From: Bimastos eiseni
Taxonomy: Eukaryota > Annelida > Clitellata > Crassiclitellata > Lumbricidae
Length of the DNA: 64,000 bases
Reading direction: 5' to 3'
NCBI GenBank assembly: GCA_959347315.1
Contig: OY365822.1
Span: 14,274,519 to 14,338,518 of the forward strand
The notes under the pieces: model-generated
Databases searched by the model: none
What the model was told of the DNA's origin: nothing
The model's input: the letters and a program-made list of their open reading frames with translations, nothing else
In this document: positions 8,698 to 58,058 of the stretch, in pieces
Layout of the letters: each line of letters starts with the position of its first letter
Numbering within the stretch: position 1 is the first letter of the stretch
Made by a program: the position numbers and the translations under genes

Positions 8698-11600
8698 ATG
8701 GGTAACAAAAACTCAGTACAAAAGTCTGCGAGTTGGTCCGATGACATACGGTTCGCGCGATATGTCAGAACAATGATAGATCGCGGAGGTGATATTAATG
8801 CGGTCGACAGAAATGGTGACGCTGCCCTTCATCTTGTTGCCAGAAAAGATCATTTAGATGTTGCAAGGGTTTTACTGAGAAACAACGCAGATGTTAATAT
8901 TCGCAATGCTTCATTTAAAACGCCTCTTCATTTGGCTGCTGAAATGGATTACGCGGAATTAGTGAAAGCGCTGATAGATCACGATGGTGAAATCAATGCG
9001 ATTGACATAAATGGCAACACTGCTCTTCATCTCGCAGCAAGCAATGGCCATATCGCAGTTGTAAACGTCTTACTCAATCTGAGTACGGAAAGTGATTGGC
9101 AGATTCGTTCACTGCACAGAGCTCTTAAAGTTGAATTTAGACATTCGCGACATTCCCTCAGAAAAACGTATGACGTTGATCAGACTTCAAAGAAAGTCGC
9201 AGCACAAGGCGAAAATTAGGAAATCGCGAATGTTAGCGATTGTTCAACTGTCGATGCAGTGTTTGTCGGTCCAGCGACACCACATGTGAACAATGGAAAC
9301 AAATATATATTTAAAGGAGTAAATGTTAATGCTTGTAACGACGCCAAGATGACTCCACTTCATTTGGCCTGTCAAAATGGTCACACATCGATTGTTGAAG
9401 TTTTGCTGAACAACAATGCTATTGTGGACATTATGAAACAAACTCATCAAACACCGTTGTATCTTGCCGCCAAAAATGGTCATGCAACTGTCTCGGATCT
9501 ATTACTGCGCCGCGGCGTTTGCGGTTTCGTAGATATCATTTATGGATATAGGACACCATTGCAAGTTGCCATCGACTATGGTCACACAGAAGTTATTGAA
9601 ATAATCATGAAACACAGCAACAGAATGCTTGAGAATTTAGCCAAAGACGGAAAGAACTCATCAGAAAATACAAGACGAATGCCAGTTGAATTTCAGAATA
9701 CCCATGGTCGATGTGTTTCTGCTGAAATTATTTGGACTGAAAGAAACATATACCTACCTAAATGGACAAATAGAGACAAAAACGGCCAGAAAATGCTTCA
9801 GCTCTTGCTTAGTGTAGATCAATGTATGCATTCAGAGAACGATTTTGCTGACTGCTTTAATTCGTTTCTATTTGAAATCCATCCTGATGTTTTTGAAGAT
9901 GAAGATCTAACTGACGTAGCAAAATGCAGGATGAATTTCAGAACAGTGGCACAACTGCTAATTAACTCGAGTAACTCTGTTGTACACCATCAGACCTTAC
10001 TTAATACCTTCATTCACGATGTGATAAGAGAGAGTAATGAAAGAAGGTCTACGTATAATATTTGTCATGGTATTGAGTCGAACAGGCTACGTTTACAGAA
10101 TGATATCATGAACGACTTGATAAAATTGTTATTAGAGAAAGGAGCGGACTTCAACACGAGGAATGATGCTGGCGAAACGCCCTTGATAACTCTATCTCGG
10201 TGCGCCGATTGTGATGCCATTAACATTTTGTTTGACTGGGAGGAAACATCAGGAATGAAACTCGACATTAATGCAAGAGACCTATATGGAGCAACCGCTC
10301 TGATTAGAGCAGTTGAATTGAACCATGTCTCAGTAGTGCAGTTACTGCTAAGCCATAATACTTCCGTGAATATGTCCAATTATTGCGGATTTACTGCCTT
10401 GCACGCAGCTATCTATGAGCCAAATGCGAACTGGTTTGATTTGAATTTCTTCTACATGGGGCTTCGTCGATTGTTTGGCATTAGTAATCGCGATATTAGC
10501 CGCAAGGACGAGCCTACCTGGAGAAATGAACCGTTAAGCCCATATACAGAGATTGGTCGGATACAGAAGTTTTTCGAATGTCACAAGAAAACTGTTCGAG
10601 CTAAGGAAGAAATGATTAGATTGCTTATTGACAATGATGAAACGGATGTGAATGTCATTGACTACAGAGGAAATACGCCACTTGATTTGGCAGTAAAGTC
10701 TTCCAAACGAATCACTTTAGCGACTTTCGAAGCACTTAAGAATCGCGGAGCCATACGTAACTTACTTGAACCGGAAGAGAATGAATCAGTTGAAGCTGCA
10801 GTTGTTGATGAGAGAGGTCAAAATCCACTTCATCGACTGATCAACGCTTGTTTTTTATATTGCGATTGGCGTGATCTAAAGAAATCGCGTTTCCTGATTA
10901 ATAGAGTTCTCTCAAGGCAACAGAATTTCAGACATTTAGCCACATCAACAGATAACAAAGGAAGAACTCCACTTCACTACGCTGTCGTGCCTCCATTCGT
11001 CTTCAAAGCGATGGCTAACAACCCTATGGATTGTAACTACACACATGTAGTGAGGACGCTATTAAGATTGGGTTCAAGTGTAAATGCAACGGACATGTAC
11101 GGAAAAACCCCTTTACATTACGCAGGACTGGATGATACGTACAAGCTTCTCGTTCATTACAGAGCTAACGAAAGCCAAAAAGACAAATACGGATACACAC
11201 CTAAAGATCTCATGAAGCTGCGACAATCGGCGTGGGTCGCCGAAAACAACGCATGGGTTTTGGCAATCGAATGTAATGATTTGGACGCATTCTTAGATAT
11301 TGCTCAAATACTCAACACGAACCATGTGACAGAATTAACAAAGTATAGATTTCTTGAATCGGTTCGAATTAACTCCCAATCACATCGCCCTAAAGAATCT
11401 TCAGAAAAAGCAATTTGGAAGATTTGGACCCAAAATGAATTTTTTCGCCTCAACAGACGCCTAAATCAACTTAACCCGTCAATACAACGCTTCATGGATC
11501 GTTTGGCGGATGGTATAAAGGAAAAGGATGAACGATTTGAGTGTCAACCGATTTTAGTTGGAAGTGCTGAAGAAGGAACAAGAGTTGTCATTTCAGCTGA

Positions 11601-12714
11601 CTTTGACTTCAACTTCAAACTGATTAAATTCAGCCAACTTTGCGATGCGCTTCCACATCCATTGGGACCGAATGGATACTTTGAACTGAGACGGAAGCGA
11701 AGTGAGGATGCAGAGAGTCGGAGTGATGAGAAGTTTGATTGTTTCTTCAACACAGATCATCGTTTACTGACCGATAAAGTTAACTCTATATTCCGGAATC
11801 TTGTGGATGACGTTTTACGTGACCTGGCATTTTGGAAAAAGGAATTTCTGGTCGAATTAGACTTCAGATATGAATATAAATATGATTTGTCAGCTGGTCT
11901 GTGTAAGACTGTGCATCTACGAATGATTCATCCCATGAGGGACGGAGAGGGCAACTTTCTTTTTGGCAACATTTCAATTGACATTGTTGCCTGTGTTCAC
12001 GTGAATTGTGATCCACTAAAAGTTGGAATAAGCCCAAATGTAAAGGCCAATTGTTCCACAATGGTCTTTGATAGTCCACATTATCGTCCATTAGTTCCAG
12101 GTCTTCGCATATTTGTTTCTTCCGAAACATTTGTCAGGATTTCATTTGCACAGCTAGAAAGTAGAAACGTAAAAGAAAGTCTGCCTTTAATAAAGGCAGC
12201 ATACATTGTTTGCAAGCTGATACTTGGTGATAAATCGCGGGCTGTTTATCGATTGAAGACTTGTCTTCTGTTTTGTATGGAGGCTCTTAATACCCGAAAC
12301 ATGAGTGAAGCAAAGAGCGAAGACGAAATTATGTCAAAGGAACTCGCCTTCTGGGTCGAGAGGATTATGTTTTGCTTCATAGAATTTTCTTGACATCACT
12401 ATTTTCCTTGTTACTTTATGCCCTCATTCAAGCAAGGCAGCGATTCATATGGTGTCGAACGTGCTATAGGATTTTGGGAGTATTCAGATAAAAGCGCAAA
12501 GGCGCATTTTTCGTTAAAGGTCCCTCGGATTTATGGAATTTACCTTGACATATGCCCGGATGATACTACAATTGATATACCTCTAATTCCAGACAAGATT
12601 CTAGAAGACGAAAGTCTCAGTGCGAATTATGATCTAAACTGGGAACAATTTGATCGGAAAGAGTTCATTAGAAAACTATCCTCTCGTAATTCCAATTCAT
12701 TGATGCAATTCTAA
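8698..12714 (+). CDS. Ankyrin-repeat / cGAS-like (Mab-21 fold) fusion, copy A, with two in-frame stops
   Basis: A single reading frame runs from ATG 8698 (A at -3, G at +4) to TAA 12712-12714, 1,338 codons, broken only by TAG at codon 174 (9217-9219) and TGA at codon 1232 (12391-12393). The protein begins MGNKNS, a match to the N-myristoylation consensus. Ankyrin units lie near residues 25-130, 206-310, 472-560, 640-690 and 750-840. The C-terminal part carries the cGAS-like nucleotidyltransferase signature: G955-S956, then D968-x-D970 in ADFDF, and a third acidic residue D1095 in SIDIV. The Ser-to-first-Asp spacing of 12 is the one I recall for human cGAS. A Mab-21-type helical lobe follows (RISFAQLE; YRLKTCLLF). 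The expected role is ligand sensing with cyclic-dinucleotide-type synthesis; this is inferred from the family. Copy B has TCG (Ser) at the TAG position and CAG (Gln) at the TGA position, so the stops are derived. It may be a young pseudogene, an allele, an assembly error or a recoded gene. Confidence 0.75.
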
Positions 12715-12798
12715 ATTGCTGAATGAGTGATTGTCCTCTTCCAGCGTTTTTAGATTAATATACAATCATACGACAGAGAATAGATGGCGCTGTACCAC

Positions 12799-12824
12799 AT
12801 CGCGTGAAGTTCTTCACGCGATGT
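12799..12824. repeat. Hairpin in the 3' flank of gene A
   Basis: CATCGCGTGAAG and CTTCACGCGATG form a 12-bp perfect stem with a 2-nt loop. The right arm is then repeated at about 12825-12838. Copy B keeps only one arm. Confidence 0.6.
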
Positions 12825-12847
12825 TCTTCACGCGATGTAGGATCCTC

Positions 12848-12853
12848 AATAAA
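12848..12853 (+). terminator. Polyadenylation signal of gene A
   Basis: AATAAA lies about 135 nt after the TAA. The corresponding position in copy B reads AATCCA. Confidence 0.5.
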
Positions 12854-12876
12854 CATACACTGAGATCAGTGGTGCA

Positions 12877-13389
12877 GCCATTTAATTACCAAGCTCTAAT
12901 CCATCCATCCATCCATTCATTTCATAGTATTGTTCTTCCAATTTCATTTCTATTTCTATTTCGATAAACGTTTGTTGCTGTTATCGATTTTGTCTTAACG
13001 CATAATTTGGCTTTGTAAATTATATGGCAACTTCTTGGAAATTGTTTATCATCAGTCAGTCTTAGTAGAGCCCACACAATTGTGACTTAGTTCAAGTCAG
13101 AAATTTACAGAGCGCCGCAACAAGATAAAGTGAGGAGAGACGCTTACGGAATATTATGCTAGCCTACATGATGTTGTTATCATAATATATTGGAAACGGA
13201 AATCTTAGATATTCAATAGATCCTGAAGCGGTGTCTTTTGTTAAGTAAATTCGATGCACGGATTAACGGATAGAGCAGCGATGTCCATCAGAAGCTTAAC
13301 TTTTGCTGATGTATGGATAAGGGTCAAATATCCCTGCGCTTCCTACGGCGTATCTTTTAGTAAATCTTCTCTTTGTTACGACAATCATT
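12877..13389. other. Spacer between duplication copy 1 and the Polinton-type element
   Basis: A (CCAT)n run lies near 12901-12920. The only other recognisable content is the partial third copy at 13131-13310. No gene is seen. Confidence 0.4.
13131..13310 (+). repeat. Partial third copy of the duplication's 5' region
   Basis: The stretch resembles 3365-3510: a CCTACATGATGTTG-like start, ACGGAAATC, ATTCAATAGATCCTGAAGCG, and ATGTCCATCAGAAGC. It is diverged and short. It lies between the end of duplication copy 1 and the Polinton-type element. Confidence 0.45.
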
Positions 13390-13632
13390 TTATAATTGCA
13401 TCATTATATTTTTATAGTATAACTCATTTATCACATTTTGCCGAAGTAACTCATCACAGATACCGACTATCTCGTTTCTTAATCTAGTATTTCCCGCTCT
13501 GAAGCTAGCCATTCGTAGTGACAACATTTGCACCAGCGCATTAGGGTCTTGTGGGAGAACTACAACCCCCTCACCCGTTGAGGACCTCCCTTGTCGATTT
13601 CGATCGATCAGTGGCCGCCTTCGATCGATCAT
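13390..13632 (-). CDS. Polinton/adintovirus-type capsid-region protein, C-terminal piece
   Basis: An 80-residue frame containing VVVLPQDPNAL, SLRMASFRAGNT and RNEIVGICDELLRQ. I recognise this block as the C-terminal part of a conserved protein of Polinton/adintovirus-type elements; its molecular role is unknown to me. Its ATG overlaps the stop of the next upstream frame by 4 nt (13629-13632). The two frames are therefore either translationally coupled or one gene split by a frameshift. I favour the split because related elements carry the parts as one protein. Confidence 0.55.
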   Translation of the reverse strand: MIDRRRPLIDRNRQGRSSTGEGVVVLPQDPNALVQMLSLRMASFRAGNTRLRNEIVGICDELLRQNVINELYYKNIMMQL

Positions 13633-14318
13633 TGGCTTAATGATTTTTTATATTTTAGGCCTCTAGACGATTTGGGTCTGTTCGGATTATTAGGTTGATA
13701 CAAGGCGTCCGTCGATACAAGAATTTCCTCGTACACGTCCAGATCGGGTTGATTGTATATCGACTCGTTTGGTTCTTTCAACGTCATCAATTCCCATAGC
13801 CCTGGAGTTTCCTTGTAGGTCTTATTACCCACCGTTATATCATCTTCTTCGATCCAGATTTGGCTGTTGCCTATGAAAAACTCCTCCTCATCTTTTTTAT
13901 AGTTTATTCCGAAGGTAGTATCCGTCATCTGATCCTTCGAGGCATAGGGTTTTAGATATTCAGTCGCGAGATCGCCTCGTCCTAATATTCTAATAAAAGA
14001 AACGGGATCGTCCTCAAACGCTTCTATCGATGGATGCTGTGGGTATTGAATCGCTTTCAACGATGTTGATATCGATGCTGACAAAGCCCGAAGGGCTGTA
14101 GAAGTCGCCGTGGTGCTTTCCTTAATCGCACCTAATTCTTTAGATATTCCAGACTGCGAGTCGATTATGGGTTTGTACGCCTTTACCAATTCCCGCTGGA
14201 GAGATATGTCTCCTATTTTCTCAGATAACGAGTCTTGTCTAATATTTTGCTTCATCTTGAGAAAGTTCTCAACGATAAAATCACGTTTGGCTGGGTCTTT
14301 AATATTTAGAAACGACAT
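13629..14318 (-). CDS. Polinton/adintovirus-type conserved protein of unknown function
   Basis: A 229-residue frame beginning MSFLNIKDPAKRDFIVENFL. An N-terminal Lys/Glu-rich helical region is followed by YLKPYASKDQ, TTFGINYK, FIGNSQI, DDITVGNKTY, TPGLWELM and NNPNRPKSSRG. This protein is common in Polinton/adintovirus-type elements of invertebrates, always within the structural gene block; its function is unknown to me. It sits 23 nt from the next gene on the same strand, so the five minus-strand genes look like one late cluster. The C-terminus probably continues in the frame below 13632. Confidence 0.6.
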   Translation of the reverse strand: MSFLNIKDPAKRDFIVENFLKMKQNIRQDSLSEKIGDISLQRELVKAYKPIIDSQSGISKELGAIKESTTATSTALRALSASISTSLKAIQYPQHPSIEAFEDDPVSFIRILGRGDLATEYLKPYASKDQMTDTTFGINYKKDEEEFFIGNSQIWIEEDDITVGNKTYKETPGLWELMTLKEPNESIYNQPDLDVYEEILVSTDALYQPNNPNRPKSSRGLKYKKSLSQ

Positions 14319-14341
14319 TTTTTAATTTAGAAACATAATAT

Positions 14342-14881
14342 TTAAACGTAAAAACGTAAATATTCAATTCGTTTTGCCAAAGTGTTTCTCGCGTCATCTA
14401 TGTTGATAGTGGTTTTACTCCTAACCTCTTCCTTCATCTGATTAAATTTCTCGAACTCACTCAGAATAACAGAATATTCCGAGTCTGAGATATTATTATC
14501 ATCTAGGGCTTTTGAAACAAGGTCACTGATCGAATTGAGTTTCCCTTCGGCTATAGTCCTGATCTTTGCATGTTTTTCTTTCCAGAGCAATAATATTCGG
14601 CGGACTTGGGTAGATATCAGAGATAGTGCTCCAGCTCCAGCAGATAAAGATACCACGATGGTAGCGGCGGGTGCAGCTACGACGGAACTTAGAAAAGTTA
14701 CGCCTAATGCGGCGAGTCCAGAAGATGTGAGGGTTAACAAACCTCCCAACGCTTCGACTACTGTAACACTCTTTTGATATTTTTTACAGATTACGTCTCT
14801 CTTTTCACGTTCTCTTAAGATTTCCTGTTGAATTTCAGATATTTTCTGAAGGCGATAGGTGTCTGCTTTGTTCAATTCCAT
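14342..14881 (-). CDS. Polinton/adintovirus-type membrane-active-like protein
   Basis: A 179-residue frame with an amphipathic charged N-terminus. A long hydrophobic Gly/Ala-rich segment (about residues 45-90, GGLLTLTSS through GALSLIS) could form one or two membrane helices. The C-terminal part is charged and helical (KLNSISDLVSKALDDNNISD). Proteins with this layout occur in the structural gene block of adintovirus-type elements and are thought to be virion minor components that act on membranes; that role is inference. It overlaps the start-distal end of the upstream gene by 10 nt (14872-14881). Confidence 0.55.
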   Translation of the reverse strand: MELNKADTYRLQKISEIQQEILREREKRDVICKKYQKSVTVVEALGGLLTLTSSGLAALGVTFLSSVVAAPAATIVVSLSAGAGALSLISTQVRRILLLWKEKHAKIRTIAEGKLNSISDLVSKALDDNNISDSEYSVILSEFEKFNQMKEEVRSKTTINIDDARNTLAKRIEYLRFYV

Positions 14882-15576
14882 TTTATAATAACGATTATTT
14901 TTAAAATGGAATTCAATTTTGTTTGTAATTCACATAACAGAACGAGTCTCCTTCGTTTATAGATAATGTTATCTGTATTTCCGTTGCTATAGGATGCTCC
15001 GATGATATCGCTCGTTACCCTCAGATTAGTAACACTCACTATGTCTACTATATTCTCTGATTCTTGGTACCCTGCTGAATAACGCCGTCTATCGAAACCG
15101 AGGACGTCTCCGATAGTGTTCAACGCCCAAAAATCATTCATATAATTTTCCGCGATATGCAAAACAGTTTTCAACGTATTGCTATTTGCTTCTATCTTAA
15201 TATTATATTTTCCGTTAGCCTTATCATAATGCCCCCTTTCTTTCATGCTTCTCTGCACGTATTCGTTAATATCCGTAATTTTATAGCAGCCTTCGGGAAT
15301 GGTTATAGTTTCCCACACCCCCACACCACCTTTCGGGATAAGCGAATAAGTAAAGGGGTTATTAGTCGCGTCGATGTTTGGGAATGAATAATATGTTTCT
15401 AGATTAACAAGAGCCATCTCGTACCTTTTATCTTTTTCGAACTGTATCAACGGATTGAACCGCGTCCTTATTCGCGAACTCTTATCACTTAATAATATGT
15501 AAAACGAAGACTTTGGCTCCGTGTAATGAGCGATCCTTTCGGTATTGTCTGCAATCTTTTGTAGATTCGATTCCAT
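14872..15576 (-). CDS. Putative capsid (penton-type) protein of the Polinton/adintovirus-type element, C-terminus altered
   Basis: A 234-residue frame with FYILLSDKSSRIRTRFNP, YEMALVNLETYYSFPNI, EGCYKITDINEYV, GDVLGFD and VTNLRVTSDIIGASYSNG. This beta-rich pattern is widely repeated in Polinton/adintovirus elements, and I take it to be a jelly-roll virion protein. After DNIIY the sequence turns into an unlike basic tail, so a frameshift has probably replaced the normal C-terminus. An alternative is the major capsid protein rather than the penton; I cannot decide without a structure search. Confidence 0.5.
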   Translation of the reverse strand: MESNLQKIADNTERIAHYTEPKSSFYILLSDKSSRIRTRFNPLIQFEKDKRYEMALVNLETYYSFPNIDATNNPFTYSLIPKGGVGVWETITIPEGCYKITDINEYVQRSMKERGHYDKANGKYNIKIEANSNTLKTVLHIAENYMNDFWALNTIGDVLGFDRRRYSAGYQESENIVDIVSVTNLRVTSDIIGASYSNGNTDNIIYKRRRLVLLCELQTKLNSILKIIVIIKWN

Positions 15577-15673
15577 TTTTTAAATGAGCAAAAGATTTAT
15601 TTATAATGGAATGTAGAATTCATCGAAGCCGCATCGGTACTTACTCTATCCTTATTGCTGGTCTGGCCTAGTA

Positions 15674-16417
15674 CTACAAAGCCGTGACGTTGCTTCCAGG
15701 CTCGTTGACATAGTTTCTTAAACTCATCCTAATGTCTGTACTCGCGTGATCGTTGTAAATGTGAGTAATGTTTTTCTGGTCTTGAGGAAACAGGCAGATA
15801 AAGTTTGCATTTTCTCTAATTGTCTGTCTCGGTAGTATGAAATAATTTTGAGCGAGGTAGAAGCAGTCGGCGTTGCTGTGTCTTCCTCGGACGTAATAAG
15901 TCTCACATTTGTTTTGCTTTTCTAACTGTAAGTCATCGAAAATCATCAAGTTTTTCTTGTCACGGTTCAATTTTCCCGGGTCTGGCACGTCTTCTGCTGA
16001 TTCAAAGAACTTGGAAGAAATGTCAGATTTTTTATTCAAGTGTTTAGCCATTTCCTCAATTACAACCTCTGGTGAATAATTTTGCCTCATGATCTCGTCT
16101 TGAATATAAAATAACCCGATGATGGATTCTTTAGGTAGTTTTTCTTCAAATGCTTTTTTCAGAATTTTATACTCTGGTTGAAAGAGAGACCTTCCGAATA
16201 TTTGTAGATTGTTATAATCTAACCATCCGGGTTGAAGAAGTAGGTTCAACAAAAAAGTCGTCTTACCACAACCAGACTTTCCTACGATTAATCCTCTTAT
16301 ACTTCTAGGTAAAAGAGGATTATTGAATCTATTAGATAACGCGCCGTTCCACGATGAATTTTGGCATCCATTTTGAATATATCTAATTGCATTTAAAATG
16401 TATTGCGTAAAGTGCAA
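15674..16417 (-). CDS. Genome-packaging ATPase (FtsK/HerA-type) of the Polinton/adintovirus-type element
   Basis: A 247-residue frame with Walker A VGKSGCGKTTF (about residues 45-55), a Walker B LMIFDDL (157-163) and a downstream RGRHSN...YLAQNYFILPRQTIREN block. These are hallmarks of the packaging ATPases shared by Polintons, adintoviruses and virophages. It would hydrolyse ATP to move DNA into a capsid. The frame opens at a TTG (16415-16417) and has no early ATG, so the natural start is lost or differs. It is divergent to, and overlaps by 20 nt, the PLA2-type gene that starts at 16398. Confidence 0.8.
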   Translation of the reverse strand: MHFTQYILNAIRYIQNGCQNSSWNGALSNRFNNPLLPRSIRGLIVGKSGCGKTTFLLNLLLQPGWLDYNNLQIFGRSLFQPEYKILKKAFEEKLPKESIIGLFYIQDEIMRQNYSPEVVIEEMAKHLNKKSDISSKFFESAEDVPDPGKLNRDKKNLMIFDDLQLEKQNKCETYYVRGRHSNADCFYLAQNYFILPRQTIRENANFICLFPQDQKNITHIYNDHASTDIRMSLRNYVNEPGSNVTAL

Positions 16418-16895
16418 AAATCATACTGAAACTAAAAATGTACAGACTGTTATTACGAAGAATGGAAGGCCGATGCTTAGAGGCACGTGTGATGTTTGTG
16501 GAAAAATAAAGACGCAGTTCGTGAAAGCATCACAAGGCGGCGATCTAGTTGGATCTCTAAATTCGGTTACAAGCGGTATTAAGTTACCATGGGCTAAATT
16601 CCCAAGTAAGATCCATTTACCAGGCCATCAGTTTACTGGTCCTGGTACTAGACTAGATTTGAGATTGAATCCTGATGGTACTGCAAAAGATTGGTCTAGA
16701 CCCGTTAATAGAGTCGATAACGCTGCGTATTATCATGATTTAGCTTACAACCAGCACACTGATACGGCTTCTAGGAATGTCGCTGATAGAGCAATGATTA
16801 ATGATTTGAATAATATTCCTAATCCTAGTGCACGGGAACGTATAGAGAGGGCTATAGTCAAACCTATATTAACTACTAAAGCAAGTCTGGGGTAG
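16398..16895 (+). CDS. Zinc-ribbon plus phospholipase A2-like virion protein of the Polinton/adintovirus-type element
   Basis: An intact 165-residue frame from ATG 16398 to TAG 16893-16895. Residues 2-43 form a zinc ribbon (C3-x2-C6 ... C31-x2-C34) of the DUF5679 type. Residues about 78-120 carry a phospholipase A2-like core: a GPGT calcium loop at 81-84 and the catalytic HDLAY at 113-117. That pattern is also found in parvovirus VP1 unique regions and in other virion proteins that breach endosomal membranes. Both catalytic motifs are complete. The gene is divergent from the ATPase and is followed 100 nt later by the integrase. Confidence 0.75.
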   Translation: MYCVKCKNHTETKNVQTVITKNGRPMLRGTCDVCGKIKTQFVKASQGGDLVGSLNSVTSGIKLPWAKFPSKIHLPGHQFTGPGTRLDLRLNPDGTAKDWSRPVNRVDNAAYYHDLAYNQHTDTASRNVADRAMINDLNNIPNPSARERIERAIVKPILTTKASLG

Positions 16896-16901
16896 GTTTA
16901 A

Positions 16902-17840
16902 AACAGCTCAAAATTACAACCCGATCTTAAATGGACCGACGAGCTCGCGGATGAATTACATAAACCTGTAGTAAGGCATTTTAGAAAACGTAAGGTGTAC
17001 GTTAGTGGGATAGATGAAATTTGGGCCGCCGATCTGGTCGATATGCAGGCTTTCGCTAAAGATAACGATGGTGTGAAATATCTATTAACCGTGATAGATG
17101 TGTTTTCAAAATATGGTTGGATCGTTCCATTGAAAGATAAGAGTGGGAAATCTACAGCTAGTGGCTTCGTGAAGATACTCAAGAGCGGTCGAAAGCCTGT
17201 TAAATTATGGGTTGACAAGAGAAAAGAATTCTATAATAAAGACGTAAAGAATTTGGTTGAGTTATATTCTACTGAAAACGAAGAAAAATCCTGCGTGGTT
17301 GAGAGATGGAACCGAACAATGATGGAGAAAATGCTTAAGTATTTTACAGCTAATTCAACTAGACGATATATTAATGTGTTGGATGAAATGGTTTGTAATT
17401 ATAATGAAACAAGATATTCTTCCATTAAAATGACGCCCGCTAAAGCAAGTATGAAAGTGAACGAGAAGGTTGTTTTTATGCATTTGTACGGCGATGAGAT
17501 TTCCGAACCTATTGTGCCTAGGTTTTCAATCTGTGATAAAGTTAGAATAACTAAGAGAAAGAACATATTTGAAAAGGGGCACACACCTAGATGGACGGAA
17601 GAAGTTTTTACAGTGTCCCAGATTCAATACGCGGATCCCCCAACTTATAAGATTACTGATTATAATGGAGAAGAAATACAGGGCTCATTTTGTGAACAGG
17701 AGCTACAGAAGACAACTCAAGACATTTTTAGAATAGAAAAGATGATCAGGAAACGTGGAAACAAGTCGCTAGTGAAATGGTTGGGTTATCCTGAGTCATT
17801 TAATTCCTGGGTTGATAATGAAGACTTGGTTGGTGTGTGA
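16902..17840 (+). CDS. Retroviral-type integrase with chromodomain (Polinton/adintovirus type), N-terminally truncated
   Basis: The frame is open from 16902 (after TAA 16899-16901) to TGA 17838-17840, but has no ATG in its early part; GTG at 16995 is the first start-like codon. It contains LHKPVVRHFRKRKVYVSGIDE just before the catalytic core. The DDE triad is visible as AADLVDM, WVDKRKEF and VVERWN. A C-terminal chromodomain follows (FRIEKMIRKRG ... VKWLGYPESFNSWV). The enzyme inserts the element into host DNA and the chromodomain may guide it to marked histones. Only 28 residues separate the second Asp from the Glu, instead of the usual 35, so about seven codons seem lost. With the missing N-terminus, this copy is probably inactive. 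Confidence 0.8.
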   Translation, partial: NSSKLQPDLKWTDELADELHKPVVRHFRKRKVYVSGIDEIWAADLVDMQAFAKDNDGVKYLLTVIDVFSKYGWIVPLKDKSGKSTASGFVKILKSGRKPVKLWVDKRKEFYNKDVKNLVELYSTENEEKSCVVERWNRTMMEKMLKYFTANSTRRYINVLDEMVCNYNETRYSSIKMTPAKASMKVNEKVVFMHLYGDEISEPIVPRFSICDKVRITKRKNIFEKGHTPRWTEEVFTVSQIQYADPPTYKITDYNGEEIQGSFCEQELQKTTQDIFRIEKMIRKRGNKSLVKWLGYPESFNSWVDNEDLVGV

Positions 17841-18568
17841 TTAACCAAAGAATCTGGTTTGCACGCGTGTTACGATGGATTTGAGCGCCGCGACTATCTA
17901 TAAATAGGCCGGAAGTTGGTCGGGGCGGAGGCTGTTGGTCTGTGTTGATATTTTTCATCAACTCGAAGGCAAAGTACGAAGCGATTAAGTATGAAGCGAT
18001 AACCAAATTATTGGTTGATGTTGGTTTGTGCGCGAATTATGTCGGATTTGCAATATTGTGCGATATTGTGGTATCCTATAGGTGAAAGATTTAACGTAGA
18101 GTTTAGGTTTGTGCATGAATTGCTGCGGATTTGCAATATTGTAGCGACCTATAGGTTAGTTTTTGACCTAGATTATTGGTTTGTGTATATTTTTAGCCAT
18201 TTTTTTTAACCTAAGGTAGGTTTAAAAAATGAAAAGATAACCTAGGATTAGGTTGATTGCACCAGCTAGCAACATATTACACTACTTATGGTCCACCTAA
18301 TAAGACTTTAATTCTAGTCTGATACTTATATACACATTGTACAGCGTCTTCTGAAGAAACTAATCGTGGGTCTCTTGCTGCATGCACTTTCATAAATGAC
18401 GTTACATTAGCCTATAAAAGGCCAATAGCTCGAAGAAATGTGTGTAATAAGCTTTTTTAACGACGCATCCATGAAAAGGATGATATGCGTTGCTATAAGA
18501 AATCTGGCCTGCACAACAAAGCATATCATATACGTTCAACAAATATGGGCGTGTGAGGTCATTTTCGG

Positions 18569-19760
18569 CAGCGGTTTTCCAACCATCTTTTTTTGTTGCA
18601 CCCCGAAACTTAAAAAATATTTGTGTGCGAACCCCAACAGAAAAAAATCTTTTCAGAAACGTTCTTTGGTCATTTATTTAATTGGAATAGATTGTTAGAA
18701 CAGGAATTTTGGCTATTATATTATTAATGAACTATGCTAAATTTATTATATTACAATTATTATTGTTGTACAATGCACTTTGAACAGTACAGCTGAGTAC
18801 ACAATAAAAGCGATTAATATGCAGGTTATGCCATTAAAAAGTAACCCCCCTCAGAATTGTTGCTAATATTTCGACCAATAGTAGAGATTAGCAAATGAAA
18901 TTTTATAGGCGGAAAGCTTATTCACATTTACATATCAAAGCCAAAATTTATTCAAATGTTTAAAACAGAACAAAAGTTATATCACTTTTACTGTGTCCAA
19001 CCGCTGTTATTTGACGGTCAAAAAATATTCAGCGCCGCAAAAACTGACAATAAGGATTTTACGAAATCACTTCAACTCTCTCATCGCTTTTGGTTTTGGT
19101 AGCAGATTGTGATATTACTCGAGCATAACTCCCCACACGTGGAAATCCATGGGGCTCAGGTCCGGTGAGCTTAGGGAAATCGGTCCTTCTCAATGAAACC
19201 AGCGCAATTGACCTTGAACCAATCTTGGGCCAAGCGAGCAGTAAGCGCTGGTGCCTCGTCTGAATCCAGCTGGCGGCATATGCTTGCAATCGACTATATT
19301 AATTGTGGAAGTAGCTACCAACGTGATATACAGCATCCACTTTGGCTTTCTCATCAACAAAATAAAGGCGACTGTTTCCACCAAAACAAACACTAGCCCA
19401 TACCATAACATGTGGAGCGAACTTCTTGTGTTCTACAATAAGTCGACATCGGATTTCTTGCCGCTGGACCAAAATAGTTTTTGACCATCAAAAAACCGCG
19501 GTTGGACTCATTAAAAGTGACATAACTTTTGTTCTGTTTGACATAATTCATTCAAATTTGGCCATTGCATGCGGGTATGAATTAGATTTGCGTCTGTAAG
19601 CCTTCATTTATTAATCTCGGCTTTTGGCCGAAAATTAGCTGTATGTTTCTGCACAAGGGTTTATTTTAGATTTCAAAATTGTTCTTGCGCCGGCCTTACC
19701 CCTTGGCAATAGCTGGCGTGCCCCTATGGAGGTACGCGTACCACCGGTTGAAAACCGCTG
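18569..19760. mobile_element. hAT-type MITE (copy 2), interrupted by a mariner-like element
   Basis: It has the same ends as the element at 4126. The flanking 8-mers are ATTTTCGG and ATCTACGG. It is about 820 bp longer because of the nested insertion at about 18821-19642. Confidence 0.8.
18821..19642 (-). mobile_element. Decayed Tc1/mariner-like element nested in the hAT-type MITE
   Basis: Long diverged terminal inverted repeats face each other: AACAGAACAAAAGTTAT at about 18965 and its complement at about 19517, with further matching outward for over 100 nt. Minus-strand DNA at about 19100-19460 gives transposase-like pieces in several frames (VMVWASVCFGG; a WFKVNCAGF-like and a GPEPHGFPRV stretch resembling the mariner SPDLNP-D motif). 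Many frameshifts make it inactive. The site is uninterrupted in copy 1. Confidence 0.65.
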
Positions 19761-19879
19761 ATCTACGGTTATCTGGAACACACTAGGTGATTGGTTAGGG
19801 AGAGCTCGAAACGCCTCTGTGTAGGTCCACGCACAATCTATTTATGGACCTTTAGCTTGATTGGATCCGCTCTTTTCTT

Positions 19880-20033
19880 GTTGGCTGCAGGATGAGGGTG
19901 GACATCGGTTCCGGTAGCTCGCTATGGATGCCGGTGTTATTCGGCGTTCCGCAGGGTTCGGTGGTTGGCCCGCTGTTGTATATCCTATATATGGCGGACT
20001 TGACGAAAATCATCTGCTATCGTGAAGCCAGTG
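19880..20033 (+). mobile_element. CR1/L2-type LINE reverse transcriptase fragment
   Basis: The frame reads LFGVPQGSVVGPLLYILY, the conserved RT motif before the YADD box. The YADD box itself is missing because the fragment ends at the junction with duplicated DNA at about 20034. It is absent from duplication copy 1. Confidence 0.75.
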
Positions 20034-20736
20034 TACATGTTCATAATAAAAGAAACTTCTTTGGTGTTTTTGACTTTCAGCGAGAAAATCGTTAATGAGT
20101 CATAGGACCTACTCGATGCCAATCAAGATTCAAGATATCGTTGTTGGAGTAAAACTGCAGGAGACTGGTATTGAAGAAATGAAAGAAGATCATGTTTCAT
20201 GTTCAAAGCAAGATAGACGTACACTCTGGTCTGCAAACTTAAGCCACATAATATCAGCATTTTTTGCTTACAGCGTTCGTGCAATTATTAATTAGGTCCC
20301 CTGTTTTGCTCAATGTGTCTGCAGCATAAGCCTACATGTAGCCTAGTAAGCCTACGCCTGCCTTTCACGTTTCTTAGACTGCTCTGTATACGTCATTGAT
20401 CTATTAAGTACTCGTAATATAATTAAATTATTATAACGCCATTCAATTAACAGAGGCGCTTTATAGCTATCACCTCAATTCTGTCAACATGTCAGTAGGA
20501 ACAGAAATATGATCGGCAAGGAATAAGTATAGTACATAGAAAGCAAGGATAATCACCAATGTGAATTCTTATATCCTGATCGCTCACGACAAATATATTC
20601 TAAACATATCCTGAAGTCACATCACTGAGAACGAATATTTTAAAACTCTGGTTCTCTATTATTTAAATGATCCGTTGTCGTAGAACAGAAACGTTCAGTT
20701 GGTGAACATTGCAAGACGGTCCTCGTATTATCGTAA

Positions 20737-21090
20737 ACTGGAGTCGCTCCATATTCATAGGCTTCCTCCAGAGAATGCTCAGATATTAGCCTATAACAGC
20801 AGGATGAAAGTCAACAGCTCTTTAAGTTAAAGCTTTTATTAACTTCTGCCACACACGAGTTCTTGCATCGCATGGAACATACGATAGCGCTGAACGTAGG
20901 TCAGTACGACAATGTCAGGTCAACATTAAACTAGCAAACGTAAGGCTTATCTAGTTGCCGCATGTCAACTACACAGAACAAACTAAGCGTGCGACCTCTC
21001 TAAAAGCCCCGCGACTACGTTTGTCAATCGGCAAAGCAGGGTAAAACAGCTAATCTTCCATCTGTTCCGCATTCCTTTTAAACACAGATA
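20737..21090. other. Copy-2-specific gene-free insertion
   Basis: Copy 1 lacks this DNA. No TIR, coding frame or repeat family is recognised. Confidence 0.35.
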
Positions 21091-21145
21091 AGAATGCCTT
21101 TTTTCAAAGTGAGAATCAGAATTGTCTATGGATTCAATTTTTATG

Positions 21146-21280
21146 ACTCGACTCAATCCGATCCATCTAAAATGGACCCGACCAGACCCGGCCCCATTTG
21201 GGAAGCGATTACCTTATCCGACCCGAACCGACCCGCGATTTGCATGATCCGATCCAATTCGACCCGACCCGTCATTTGTT
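21146..21280 (+). repeat. Second GACCCGACC minisatellite array
   Basis: GACCCGACC, GATCCGATCC and CGACCCG units recur; this array is present only in copy 2. Confidence 0.6.
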
Positions 21281-21737
21281 TTAATTTTACTAATAATATT
21301 TTTCGTCAAATTCTAATGTCGTAAAAACGCTACACAATCAGATCGCCATGCAGGATAACAATATTCATTTGTGAGAATGTATCAGAAAAGATACCCTTCG
21401 TTTATTCCATTTATTTTAGCCTAAACTTGTTTTATCCATAAATATATGTGTAGCAAAGTGGCGCTACATCAACTAACGCTACTATTATGTAAGGAAGATA
21501 CTATATATATATTATTACGTTCTGGGGACCCTAAATAAACCAGGAGAGAAGTATAAATGTAAATTATCTTTATTAAACACTGACTATGTTATAATAATAC
21601 CTGTATAATGATCATGAGTGTTCACAAATAACTGTTACAAGTACTTACAGAGCGGTGGTGTATGAAATCGCCTAGTGTCCAACCGTACGATATAAGTTGA
21701 TGATTCTAACAAGTGATCTAGCGTTCTCCGTAATTCA

Positions 21738-21854
<117 letters not shown>

Positions 21855-21944
21855 TAATGAACACATGCACAGAAGATGTTAACCGCAGAGTCAATATGAA
21901 AAACACAAGGTTCAAAACTAAGCTCTGCAAAAAACTGGTGGGTC

Positions 21945-22080
21945 GAAATGGGTAAGTGTTTGGGACCCGACCCAAACCTACCCACGAGGATTTTGACCGA
22001 GCCGACCTGCAAGGCAGCCTAATTTATGGATATTCGTGACCCGACCCGGCCCGAACTACGGATCGACCCACCCGTGGACA
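21945..22080 (+). repeat. Degenerate GACCCGACC minisatellite upstream of gene B
   Basis: It is homologous to 8155-8285 and part of the segmental duplication. Confidence 0.6.
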
Positions 22081-22304
22081 ACTCTGAGTAAGATATAATT
22101 TTAAATTAGGCTAAGGATCTGTCCAAAAATATCACCGCATGCAATTATATGGTACATACCGTATTCTGGCAAATCGCTACCGAATATTCCATAAATCGGA
22201 GATGTCATTTCTTGATACAGCATCAGTGTCGATGTTTTAACCGTCACCATTATGTCTTCCGAAGGTTATAAAAGGCACCTCGATCTAAATCGTCAACGGT
22301 TCTT

Positions 22305-22392
22305 GTATTGTATTTATTGTATTGCATTTACATATTTCTATAGCGCCTCTCCCAGTACAACCTAATCAGAGGCGCTCTCTCTTACTATATAA
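22305..22392 (-). mobile_element. 3' tail of an L2/CR1-type LINE
   Basis: It contains the motif seen at the end of the LINE at 41.33 kb: GAGGCGCT...hairpin...TATAGAAATATG and a (TACAA)n-type tail, read on the minus strand. Confidence 0.6.
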
Positions 22393-22734
22393 ATTAACTA
22401 ATTAACGTAAAGTCATCATCTGAGTCAATTAAGAGAGTAATGCAAAATACTTACAAAAAACTACATATGGAAGTCCTATATGGGGCACATCTTTCATACT
22501 ATATCTGACATCGACTGATGTATTCAAAAATAATTCACTATAATTGTTAATGAAGATTCATATGGCGCGCTTCGAGGACGAGTAAGAGACGCTGTTAAGC
22601 AAAATGTGACAGCGATTAAAGCTTAATGCATCGACGTGTGTATTGTGTAGCCTGCATATTCAATTCGCTACGATATTGTACATATTGTTGATGGATGGAA
22701 ATTGTTTATTACTTGATAAATAGAAATGGTGTAT

Positions 22735-22746
22735 TTTATTTCGCAG
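22735..22746 (+). promoter_or_regulatory. Putative 3' splice acceptor in the 5' leader of gene B
   Basis: TATTTTATTTCGCAG sits 58 nt before ATG 22805 and is conserved with gene A, whereas the flanking intron-like DNA differs by large insertions. Confidence 0.5.
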
Positions 22747-22804
22747 ATACTGAACCGATAGAATACTTGTTCATTTGCTATATGGAATACTGAAACACAC
22801 AACA

Positions 22805-25800
22805 ATGGGTAATAAGAAATCAGTACAAAAGTCTGCTAGTGTGCCTGAAGAAACACGAGTTGCACGTGAAGTCACAGCAGTGATAGATCGCGGAGGTGAT
22901 GTTAATGCGGTTGACAAAAACGGCAACACTGCTCTTCACCGTGCGGTAATAATAGGAAATACTAATTATGTGCAGCAGTTTCTTCTGAGAAACAATGCAG
23001 ATACAAATATTCGAAATAGATTTCTTAGCACTCCTCTTCATATCGCTGCAGAAATGGGTCACACTGAAATGGTCAATGCAATTATAGATCACGAAGGTGA
23101 TATCAATGCTGTCGACAGAAATGGTGACGCTGCCCTTCATCTTGTTGCCAGAAAAGATCATTTAGATGTTGCAAGGGTTTTACTGAGAAACAACGCAGAT
23201 GTTAATATTCGCAATGCTTCATTTAAAACGCCTCTTCATTTGGCTGCTGAAATGGATTACGTGGAATTAGTGAAAGCACTGATAGATGACGATGATGAAA
23301 TCAATGCGGTTGACATAAATGGCAACGCTGCTCTTCATCTGGCAGCAAGCAATGGCCATATCGCAGTTGTAAACGTCTTACTCAATCTGAGTGATTGGCA
23401 GATTCGTTCACCACACAGAGCTCTTAAAGGTGAATTTGAGCATTCGCGACATTCCCTCAGAAAAACCGATGACGTTGATCAGACTTCAAAGGAAATCGCA
23501 GCACAAGGCGAAAATTCGGAAATCGCCAATGTTAGGGATTCTTCAACAGTCAATGCATTGTTCAACGGTCAAGCTACACCGCGTGCGAAAATTTGTAAAA
23601 ATTTTACATTTAACGGAGCAAATGTTAATGCTTGCAACAACGCCAAGATGACTCCACTTCATTTAGCCTGTCAAAATGGTCACACATCCATTGTTGAGGT
23701 TTTATTGGACAACCAAGTCACTGTAGACGTCACGACACAAACTCATGAAACACCGCTGTATCTTGCCGCCGAGAATGGTCATGCAGATGTCTCTGATCTA
23801 TTAATGCGGCGCGGTGTTTACGATTTCGTGATCTCTTATAAATATCAGACGCCATTGCTAGTTGCAATCGACAGACGTCACACTGAAGTTGTTGAGGTTT
23901 TATTAAAACACAGCAGCAGAATGTATGAGAATTTAGCAAAAGACGAACAAAACTACCAGAGAATATTAGACGAAGCGTCATGCCAATTGTTTTTCAAAAT
24001 TGTGATGGTCGACGTGTTTCTGCTGAAATAGTTTGGACAGAAAGATACAGACTTCTCTGGTTAAAGGGATACGCATTGGGACTCCTCCCTCTCGTACCCG
24101 CAGCATACTCAATTGACCCTAAAATGGTTGAGCTATTGCTTAGTGTAGATCAATGTATGTATTCAGAGGATGATATTGCTTTCAGCTTCTTTTCCCTTAT
24201 AAACGCAATCGGGATTGATGATTTTAAAGCCGAGGAGATAAGCGACGCTATCACATGCAGGATGAATTTCAGAAAAGTCGCACAATTTCTAATTAACGCG
24301 AGTAAATTTAATGTAAACAACCGACACTTCCTTCATGACTTGATATTGAATATTAAAATAAATAGGCCTATCTATAATATTTGTCCTAGTATTGAGTCGA
24401 GCAGGCTGCGCTTGCAGAATGAAATCACGAACGACTTGATACAGTTGCTATTAGAAAATGGAGCAGACTTCAACATGAAGAATTCTTTTAGCCAAACGCC
24501 CTTGATTATTGCCTCTGACAAAGGTTATTGCGATGCCATTCAAATTATGCATGACTGGGAGGAAAAATTCGGAATGAAACTCGATCTTGACGGAAGAGAT
24601 CACTATGGAGCAACTGCTTTGATTAAAGCAGGAGGTCATCATGTCTCAATAGTGCAACTGTTGTTAAGCCATGGAGCATTCGTAAATTGTTGCGACTATC
24701 GCGGATTTACCGCTTTGCACGTAGCTATCTATGAGCCAAATAGGAACTGGTTTGATTTGAAATTCTTCTACGATGGGCTTCGTAAAAAAAATTGGAAGGC
24801 GTAACTGATCTTGATATTGGCCTCAAGGATAATCTCTCCAGGAATAAAAGCTTATGCCCATATACAAGGATTGGCTGGATACAGAATTATTTTGAATGTA
24901 ACAAGGAAACTGTTCGATTTAAGGAAGAAGTCGTAAAATTGTTGTTAGATAAAAATGAAACTAATGTGAATGCCGTTGACTACAGAGGAAATACGCCACT
25001 TGACTTAGCAGTGAAGTCTTCCAAACGAATTACTTCAACCACTTTCGAGGCACTTCAGAATCGCGGAGCCATTTGTAACTTAATAGAACTGGAAGAGCAA
25101 GAGTCATTCGTACCGACAGTCGTTGATGAGAGAGGTCAAAATCCATTTCATCGACTGATCAGAGCTCGCTTTTCTTATTGCGAAAAACAAAATCTCGAGA
25201 ATTCAGAGTTACTGATTAATGGAATTCTTCGAAGACAAAAGAATTTCAGGCATTTAGCCACAGCAACAGATAACAAAGGAAGAACTCCACTTCACTACGT
25301 TGTTATTCAATCAGGGGAGATCCATAGGAAAGAGAGCGACTTGCATGTAGTGAGGGTGCTGTTAAAATTAGGTTCAAACGTAAATGCAACTGACATGTAC
25401 GGAAAAACTCCTTTGCATTACGCTGAACTGGATGATACGTACAAGCTTCTCGTCCAGTTCGGAGCTAATGAATGCCAAAAAGACGAACATGGACATGGAG
25501 CAAAATATCTTAAGCAGCTACGAAAATCGATAAAGGTCAACCAATTTGACGCTTGGTATTTGCCAATCGCAAATAGTAATTTGTGTGCGTCCCTAGATAT
25601 GGATATTACTCAAGTACCTAACCGATACCATGTGACCGAATTAACGAGGCACAAAGTGGTTGAATCGATTAGAATAAACTCCCAATCGCCACGACCTCAT
25701 GAATCGTCAGAAGAGGCAATTTTTAAGATATGGACCCAGAACGAGTTATTTCGCCTCAACAAACGCCTATGCCAACTTAAACCGTCAGTACAACACTTCA

Positions 25801-27030
25801 TGGATCGTTTGTCAGATGGAAAAGGAAAAGGATGAACGATTTGAGTGCCAACCGATTTCAGTTGGAAGTGCTGAAGAAGAAACAAGAGTTGTCATTTCAG
25901 CTGACTTTGACTTCAGCTTCAAACTAATTAATTTCAGCCAATTCTGCGAAGCGTTTCCACATCCATTGGGTCCGAAGGGATACTTCCAACTGAGACGTAA
26001 GCGAAGTGAGAATGTAAATTGGCAAAGCGATGAGAAATTTGACTGTTTCTTCGACTCAGATCAGTGTTTACTGACCAATGGAGCTCGTTCTCGATTCCAG
26101 AATCTTTTGGAAGATGTTTTAAAGGACCCTGAATTCTGGCAAAACGAAACATTTTTCGAATATTTCTGGAAAGTTGAAAGAGAATTCGATAGGCCATGCC
26201 CTATTTGTAAGACGGTGCATCTAAAAATGGTACATCCAATTGACGACGGAGAGGGCGACCTTCTTTTTGTTGAAATTTCAATTGATATGGTTGTCTGTGT
26301 TCACGTGGATGGTTGGTTTCCAGACGACCCACTGCCAATTGGGATAAGCCCATTTGTGAAGGCAAACGATTCTACGATGGTCCTTGATGTGCGGCCCTTC
26401 GATCTATCCAAACCGTTTGTTGATCGCATTCTCTTTTCCGATACATTTGCCAGAATTTCATTTGCGCCTTTTGAAAGTCAGATGATAAAAGAATGCTCGC
26501 CTTTAGCAAAGGCAGCATATATGGTTTGCAAGATGATACTACATGCTAGATCATTTAAAACATATCAATTGAAGAATTGTCTACTCTTTTGCGTGAAGGC
26601 TCTTAATGCCCGAAATGTAAGTGAAAAAAATAACGAAGACGAAATTACGCCAAAGGAACTCGCCTTCTGGGTCGATAGGATCATGTTTTGCCTCTTGGAA
26701 TTTTCTCAGCGTTATGTTTTTCCTTCTTATTTCATGCCCTCATTCAAGCAGCGAGCCCCATTTCATGAAAACTTTATGCGTCTGGATGACATTTCGACCA
26801 AATTTGACGAAATGGTAACGGAAAGCGTTTCTTTATCGCTTCCTGGTATTTATGTAATTTACCTTGACCTGTGTCCAGATGATACTACAATTGATATACC
26901 TGTAGTTTCAGACGGAATCCCAGTAGAAATTCTTAATGCGAATCATGATCAAAGCTGGGAACAATTTGATCAGAAAGAATTCCTGAGAAAGCTATCTTCA
27001 CGTAATTCCAATGAATTAATGCAATTCTAA
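22805..27030 (+). pseudogene. Ankyrin-repeat / cGAS-like (Mab-21 fold) fusion, copy B, with three frameshifts
   Basis: This is the paralogue of the gene at 8698, colinear along its length. The likely start is ATG 22805 (MGNKKS, myristoylation-type, good Kozak context); an in-frame ATG at 22775 lies upstream but has no counterpart in copy A. The frame breaks three times: a net 1-nt loss near 23955-23960 (plus a 6-nt insertion just after), an A8 run at 24784-24791 where 9 or 6 A would keep frame, and a 2-nt loss near 25815-25820. The open segments are 22805-24031, 23980-24804, 24792-25835 and 25699-27030. The nucleotidyltransferase motif is intact: Gly-Ser at 25864-25869, Asp-x-Asp at 25903-25911 and the third Asp at 26284-26286. 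The C-lobe keeps the Mab-21-like LKNCLLF and FPSYFMPSF motifs that the TGA in copy A interrupts. Copy B has 67 more residues (two ankyrin units) near its N-terminus than copy A. It lacks the AATAAA that follows copy A. Confidence 0.75.
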
Positions 27031-45105: not shown

Positions 45106-45275
45106 TAATAATCCCGAGGGATCATATGTACCTCAGAGGAAAAAATTTTTTTTTATGATACTGATAATAATGATTATTTTACTATAATATAAATTGTAGT
45201 ACATAATTATTTCAACACCACAATTGCGCATGCGATAAAGACAATGATGATGTATTATTTGATTTTGGTGCAGCA

Positions 45276-56434: not shown

Positions 56435-57336
56435 AAAGTCAAAAATGAATGAGAGACATGTACTTAAGCGATATTTTACGACACCGTTTAATTTTGCTTA
56501 TCTGCCAAAACACGCGCCTAATATCAGTTCAATTTACAGAGGTACGTATGACAACAAATACGCGCCTAAAAGTCTAGGTACATGAGTATTTATAAAAGTG
56601 AATTGACATATCTTAAGGGTGTCTAAGGAGAATTCGGCCTAATACATTACTTGACACCATCTAAAGGTTGTCATAGGCATTGACGCTGATCAGGTTGAAT
56701 TTCCAATCTCAATAAATTTTATTTCAATTATAGTAGAGTTATAATCACCATCAGGTCGCGAAAGAAGCCGAAATCAGTAATCACTGCAGGCTGAAGTTGT
56801 CGTTAAACATTGGATACCTCTAATGCTAAAAATTGTTTCTGATGCCATAACAAAAGAAATAATCTTTTCCAATATATTAGTATTCGAGGCTGGCAGTTTC
56901 TGGTCGGAAGATCTAGGACTACTGTAAATAGACAATGACAACTTAGTGAGAACATTACTATACAATAATATAATATAGTACATACCATTGCCTAAAAAAC
57001 ATTAAAAACTAGAAAAGAGACACTTAAAGACACTTATCACAAACGTAAATATGTACCTTGTATACCTGTACTTGTTTGACGCATATCATCGTCGTTATGA
57101 ATGCGTCGTTAAATAAACTTATATCAGTCAGTCAGACGTGTGATTATCGTCGCCATCATCGCAGTCGTCGTCGTTATAGAAGAGAAAGAAGAAATGCAGC
57201 CGAGACAGACTGGTTTTAGATAAGAGAAGTAGGACGTGGCGTGTGTGTTGCTTTGTTTGGACTGGTTTAAGCACAGGTGGTGGTTGCGATGATGATGCTG
57301 ATGATGATGATTAGCATCTTTGTCGTTGTCGATTTT

Positions 57337-57768
57337 CTAAGTTAAGACTTTGTGGCTCTGAAAAGAGCCGTTTTCTTTCCGATCTGGCGACGCCGGACGA
57401 GGGCCGTCCCAGACGCTTACCTGGAGCTGGTGTACTTTGTCACCGCCTTCGGACACGGCGTGTTTGGCCAGCAGGAGCCAGACGGCCGTCTGGATTTCGC
57501 GACTCGTGATCGTTGATCGGCGGTTGTAGTGGGCCAGACGGCTGGACTCGGCGGCGATGCGCTCGAAGATATCGTTGACGAAGCTGTTCATGATGGACAT
57601 GGTCTTCGACGATATGCCCGTGTCGGGATGGACCTGCTTGAGCACCTTATAGATGTAGATGGCGTACGACTCCCTACGGCGCCTCTTGCGCTTCTTCTCG
57701 CGGGCTCGGGCTGCCTTCGCTTTCGACGCGGCCTTCTTCGCTCCCTTCGACGCTGGTTTGGACGGCAT
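57337..57768 (-). pseudogene. H2B: Histone H2B with damaged C-terminus
   Basis: The frame begins [12 protein letters not shown] and follows metazoan H2B through the histone fold ([45 protein letters not shown]). H2B would pair with H2A in the nucleosome. Near the end, Arg is replaced by Trp after TAV. Four codons (normally PGEL) are missing before AKHAV, and an 8-nt loss after VSE shifts the frame. The canonical ending [13 protein letters not shown] is still encoded in the other frame, with TAA at 57417-57419. The actual frame instead runs on through the histone stem-loop to 57337. Given the equally broken H2A, this is probably a pseudogene or an assembly problem. Confidence 0.8.
57354..57369 (-). 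terminator. Histone mRNA 3' stem-loop (H2B)
   Basis: On the minus strand the sequence reads GGCTCTTTTCAGAGCC, the canonical metazoan histone stem-loop (6-bp stem, 4-nt loop), followed by ACAAAG. It lies about 48 nt after the original H2B stop position. Confidence 0.9.
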
Positions 57769-58058
57769 ATTTCTATCTTCTTAGACACGAGTAGGAGAAG
57801 AAGAAGTAGTAGCAGACCTCTGAGATGAACAGACAGACACGAGAAACGCCTGTGACGGCGGGCGTATTTATGCGCGCGCGACGCGGCGAGCCGAGATCAC
57901 GTGAGTCGATTAGTATGCGTGAACCGGGGCAAACACGTGGTGCGCTTAGTCTGGCTGCGTTCTAGATATATCAAGCGGTCGTCTGCGGCATTATTGTGAG
58001 CGGAGAGGAAGGCTGTGGATCGTTTTGTTGGACGTAGTATAAAGAGGAAGAAGAAAAG
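57769..58058. promoter_or_regulatory. Divergent H2B/H2A intergenic promoter
   Basis: The 290-bp spacer separates the two histone ATGs. For H2B a TATA-like TAAATA (minus strand) lies at 57865-57870, about 97 nt before the ATG. For H2A a TATAAAG at 58038-58044 is only 15 nt before the ATG, too close for a usual TATA box. The rest is GC-rich, with a GCGCGCGCG tract. Confidence 0.5.

Follow-up and report, generated by a model that had tools for sequence, protein, structure and literature searches.

Probable pseudogenes of an ankyrin-repeat cGAS-like receptor family at a locus of the annelid Bimastos eiseni

Introduction

cGAS-like receptors (cGLRs) fused to ankyrin repeats (ANK) are a known kind of protein: Li et al. 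2023 (PMC9980059) list ANK as a cGLR architecture in the legend of their Figure 1C and name it among the cGLRs of S. pistillata. This paper and two others, PMC8195603 and PMC6321704, are cited here for portions of their text, and within these portions ANK-cGLR fusions are described in the first but not in the other two, and none of the three gives a ligand or product of an ANK-cGLR. According to the same portions of PMC9980059, cGLRs that sense double-stranded DNA or double-stranded RNA have an isoelectric point (pI) above 8.5, acidic auto-active cGLRs are proposed to answer other ligands, and Mab21L1/2/3 are, per a figure legend, without a predicted functional active site. Here we describe two genes of the ANK-cGLR kind, copies A and B, in a 64,000-nucleotide stretch of Bimastos eiseni (G000:C17:14274519-14338518, hereafter the window; the genome is 660 Mb in 118 contigs). 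A first-pass annotation of the window had thought the architecture possibly undescribed, which is rejected in view of PMC9980059; what the locus and its genome add is broken window copies, a radiation in single open frames and low pI. We conclude that A and B are quite probably decayed copies from a large ANK-cGLR family that radiated in tandem, that its open relatives elsewhere in the genome would most likely be cytosolic receptors, and that the window copies most likely make no working enzyme.

Results

Copies A and B were compared with each other and with paralogues by translation, Pfam search and DNA alignment, and the lesions were judged by the aligned copies. Copy A (8698-12714, plus strand, as are all features of both copies) is a disrupted ankyrin array joined to a cGAS-like nucleotidyltransferase and is a probable pseudogene. 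Its first open part (8698-9216), which starts with MGNKNSVQK and carries ankyrin repeats, terminates after 173 codons at a TAG (codon 174, 9217-9219) where copy B and paralogue L058 have TCG. The same frame resumes directly beyond the TAG, and the main open part (9220-12390, 1057 amino acids) holds ankyrin repeats and then the Mab-21 nucleotidyltransferase, with the Gly-Ser (GS) motif at 11560-11565, the Asp-Phe-Asp (D-F-D) metal-binding pair at 11599-11607 and the third catalytic Asp at 11980-11982. It ends at a TGA (codon 1232, 12391-12393), which is CGA in L058, CGG in L061 and CAG in B, and which removes approximately 20 final residues aligning with cGAS together with a conserved tail. Both stop codons are missing from B, L058, L061 and L062. 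When both are read through, 8698-12714 gives 1339 codons including the final stop, which is the 1338-residue protein of the first-pass annotation.

Copy B (22805-27030) has the architecture of A and is also a probable pseudogene, needing four open reading frames (ORFs) in three frames. Alignment places its three frameshifts at a 1-base loss near 23954 (23954-23955), an indel near 24787 (24784-24790) with a net loss of one base relative to L061, and a 2-base loss near 25819 (25819-25820) just ahead of the GS motif; none of these losses is present in A. The GS motif (25864-25869), the D-F-D pair (25903-25911) and the third Asp (26284-26286) were located by alignment, at the positions of A plus 14304. 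Uninterrupted coding sequence is therefore found in neither copy, A having two nonsense codons and B three frameshifts, and the genes cannot be called complete. What stands is that two related genes pair an ankyrin array with a Mab-21 nucleotidyltransferase at the C-terminus: both have the catalytic residues, the best Ank_2 E-value is 4.6e-45 in A and 1.4e-66 in B, and the Mab-21 nucleotidyltransferase family PF03281 (curated cut-off 24.1 bits) scores above the cut-off in A (29.3 bits) and slightly below it in B (23.0 bits).

Introns masking the lesions were considered and dropped. Copy B stays in one frame across the site of A's TAG, L058 and L061 are open through the site of A's TGA, and at the frameshifts of B the aligned copies appear to be coding sequence that differs by a small indel.

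Profile and fold searches of the catalytic domain matched cGAS and the receptor Cv-cGLR1, the structural match that had been proposed as a check, and the Foldseek matches include MAB21L1 (5eom). The domain thus has the cGAS/Mab-21 nucleotidyltransferase fold expected of a cGLR, and A and B carry the GS and [D/E]-x-D ... D signature. A single-sequence PDB search with P0006 gave one match, at E 2.7. The Mab-21-type C-lobe described earlier holds in part: Pfam gave no Mab-21_C match at E<=0.1 in either copy, and the evidence for a C-lobe comes from the profile alignment with cGAS and from the fold match. The pattern H-x5-C-C-x6-C, which we take to be that of the cGAS-type zinc thumb, was found in 0 of 14 catalytic domains (that of the window truncated by its stop), unlike in cGAS sensu stricto.

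To survey paralogues, the catalytic part of A was searched against the same genome, giving 52 matches, of which 34 distinct places, A and B included, were examined; three places on C13 and one on C17 at 2.84 Mb lie outside this survey, and a fragment inside L042 is uncounted. The 34 places include two clusters on C17, at 5.28-5.87 Mb and at 14.05-14.83 Mb (the latter containing the window), with a further three places on C17 at 4.93-4.96 Mb; C13 has five, and C4, C6, C7, C10, C12 and C15 have one each. The catalytic set GS/GG, [D,E]-F-D and distal D is kept in 30 of the 34 copies, A and B included, two of them with GG and some broken elsewhere in the gene. The four exceptions are L045 and L046, which are degraded, L037, a fragment that lacks the third position, and L026, which is frameshifted at the third catalytic position and in the joined reading gives T there.

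Fifteen paralogue ORFs, all chosen for long frames, were scanned with Pfam: six focal ones and nine others, drawn from 12 stretches from which L043, L045 and L046 were omitted as broken. All six focal ORFs are open through the ankyrin and catalytic parts, with lengths of 1292-1606 amino acids measured stop to stop. Ankyrin repeats share the reading frame of the catalytic domain in 15 of 15 ORFs, and in A and B only across lesions. Mab-21 was matched at E<=0.001 in 13 of them; L059 and L063 instead align with the others across the catalytic domain, and each of the nine non-focal ORFs matches both ankyrin and Mab-21 within one frame. The open ANK-cGLR genes look single-exon over the coding part, as judged from their reading frames. 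A further homologue, P0009 of an ENA set (1349 amino acids), has ankyrin repeats and 57% identity over the catalytic region, and no Pfam Mab-21 call at E<=0.1; open homologues, on which the earlier proposal depended, exist in this genome and in that ENA set. More homologous pieces were found in ENA and JGI sets, and a phage tblastn with the catalytic domain gave no match.

The lesions could be assembly or base-calling errors, A and B then being intact and active ANK-cGLR genes. The six paralogues open over 1292-1606 codons, which indicate that the family is not dead, and the catalytic residues retained in both window copies agree with this explanation. Nevertheless, it has to account for five separate lesions in two genes, and the two in A are base substitutions, an error type seldom left in polished long-read assemblies. 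In addition, L018, L021, L026 and L028 in the same cluster also contain stops or frameshifts, and the substitution ratio of A given below argues, weakly, in the same direction. We therefore consider such errors a distinctly improbable explanation of the five lesions.

The ratio of nonsynonymous to synonymous substitution rates (dN/dS) was compared among the 45 listed pairs with the lowest dS over the catalytic part (346-347 codons for A with L010 and L011). It was 0.94 for A versus L010 and 0.84 for A versus L011, and such values near 0.9 fit the expectation for a pseudogene. Among the 28 pairs with a ratio that do not involve A, B, L010 or L011, 25 had values of 0.33-0.49, and the remaining three had 0.60, 0.60 and 0.70. 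Copy A might instead be shortened and working, with a start inside the 1057-residue part yielding a smaller ankyrin array and the catalytic core, since 9220-12390 is open and contains the entire catalytic triad. However, the segment lost from the C-terminus through the TGA can be aligned with cGAS and is conserved among paralogues, and the ratio near 0.9 speaks, again weakly, against a maintained enzyme; we regard a working short form as very unlikely, and decay of A as the preferred reading.

Selection within the family was compared among six paralogues. In all 15 pairs, which are non-independent, dN/dS was higher in the ankyrin part (0.45-0.61) than in the catalytic part (0.26-0.50), and in 13 of the 15 the ankyrin part was also the less identical of the two at the protein level. 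This six-paralogue comparison gave no sign of region-wide positive selection in either part.

The relationship between A and B differs from that of a recent tandem duplication. Their DNA identity is 77%, versus 94% between A and L058, located approximately 60 kb from A, and a recent A-B pair is rejected on this ground. The ankyrin tract at 8803-9214 of A and 23111-23513 of B is 96% identical (386/403), and in L058 the same tract is 97% identical to B. Because A and B are only 76% identical (2558/3369) beyond 9300, the tract inside the ankyrin array is likely, on these alignments, to be due to gene conversion. A second patch of high A/B identity (91%, 11498-11697) spans the GS/D-F-D region and may reflect conversion or constraint. 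A, B and L063 begin with MGN..(S/T), an MGxxxS-type start that we take to be a myristoylation-like N-terminus; L059-L062, by their first Met, do not begin so, and L058 has ATG-GGT followed immediately by TAA.

Mab-21 matches number at least 148 in the genome, and many of those on C5 and C7 lie within long open frames. A third Mab-21 gene of the window (45207-48098, plus strand) is a 963-residue open frame in which Pfam matched Mab-21 and Mab-21_C and no ankyrin repeat; its C-terminal part is long.

The pI of the catalytic domain was calculated for 14 pieces, each the first 380 residues, with the window piece ending at its own stop. It ranged from 4.88 to 8.11, and 0 of 14 exceeded 8.5, although the program and the stretch used differ from those of Li et al., and whole-domain pI is not groove charge. 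For other Mab-21 ORFs of the genome, taken irrespective of ankyrin content and also over the first 380 residues, pI was 8.99, 9.35, 8.96, 8.91 and 8.46 for L001-L005 (L003 has only 292 residues), 8.49 for L007 and 6.29 for L008. L006, of the C13 ankyrin subfamily, has pI 5.75, and the third window gene, without ankyrin repeats, 5.87 over 400 residues. Low pI is thus also found outside the ankyrin members and is not special to them; it fits a non-nucleic-acid ligand and does not show one. A bolder proposal, which we regard as somewhat unlikely, is that single-frame ANK-cGLRs radiated by birth and death, that their catalytic domains, being neutral to acidic, have lost nucleic-acid sensing, and that the ankyrin array, partly swapped between copies by gene conversion, provides variable recognition in receptors for proteins or other positively charged ligands.

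Between A and B, ORFs at 13629-17840 comprise, by Pfam, an A32-like ATPase (15674-16420, minus strand), DUF5679 plus a PLA2-like domain (16377-16895, plus strand) and an integrase plus chromo domain (16902-17840, plus strand); three more minus-strand ORFs of this interval had no Pfam match. The set is presumably Polinton/Maverick-like. A core histone ORF lies at 57330-57780 on the minus strand, and a histone 3′ stem-loop (RF00032, 57330-57374) overlaps its 3′ end.

Discussion

In the open relatives, the long N-terminal ankyrin array would bind a ligand or partner protein, and this binding may activate the cGAS-like nucleotidyltransferase at the C-terminus. With its GS / [D,E]-x-D / D site, whose residues are present, the enzyme would then make a nucleotide messenger, possibly read by STING. 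Seven STING_LBD matches were found in the genome, six on C3 and one on C17, indicating that a messenger reader is encoded, which might serve the ANK-cGLRs. The six on C3 cluster at G000:C3:3713319-3762939 and are possibly several tandem STING genes.

Several observations weigh against decayed window copies in a family of working receptors. The fold model of the catalytic domain has a mean predicted local distance difference test (pLDDT) score of 48, with its confident portion limited to the spine helix and some of the N-lobe; in the ankyrin-plus-enzyme model, the catalytic part is below 50 nearly throughout. The lesions are known from the assembly sequence alone and may include assembly errors, and the nearest relatives of A are themselves partly disrupted, L011 having an open frame of only 583 amino acids and L058 its early TAA. 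Close pairs show high dN/dS in any case (0.70 at dS 0.12 for L014-L019; 1.12 for L010-L011), so that the value of A supports decay only weakly and the lesions carry the argument. Finally, four focal ORFs score 20.6-23.9 bits for Mab-21, below the cut-off, and the other two of the six have no match at E<=0.001. Such scores would suit open members that are ankyrin scaffolds with an inactive Mab-21 domain, like the described Mab21L1/2/3, rather than enzymes. The retention of the catalytic residues in 30 of 34 copies, across two subfamilies, and the lower dN/dS of the catalytic part in every (non-independent) pair of six sequences argue against scaffolds, which we consider unlikely. On balance, we favor an ANK-cGLR family with open, putatively enzymatic members, of which the window chiefly documents the decay. 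A genome that combines numerous open ANK-cGLRs with STING exons and low-pI catalytic domains would be a good place to ask whether proteins, rather than nucleic acid, can activate cGAS-type enzymes.

Compared with known systems, the family shares the superfamily fold with Mab21L1/2/3 and differs in keeping the active-site residues. With vertebrate cGAS it shares the fold, the GS motif and the catalytic acids, and differs by its ankyrin array. Identity in the fold alignment with Cv-cGLR1 of Crassostrea virginica (PDB 8gjw) and Sp-cGLR1 (PDB 8gjy) is 16%; the solved chain of 8gjw has 346 residues and was aligned at numbers 292-615, and the domain pI here is lower than the value above 8.5 reported for nucleic-acid sensors in the cited portions of PMC9980059. 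The oyster DED-TRADD-N proteins, as far as the cited portions of PMC8195603 describe them, likewise join a cGAS/Mab-21 domain to repeats and other modules in a bivalve, but these are TPRs and HEPN/Ig/DED-TRADD-N, in contrast to the ankyrin array ahead of the enzyme here. The closest likeness is to the ANK-cGLRs of Li et al. 2023, which, in the portions of PMC9980059 used, share ankyrin repeats and a cGLR core in one protein; here a single genome has dozens of copies, many of them open in one frame, together with the broken copies of the window.

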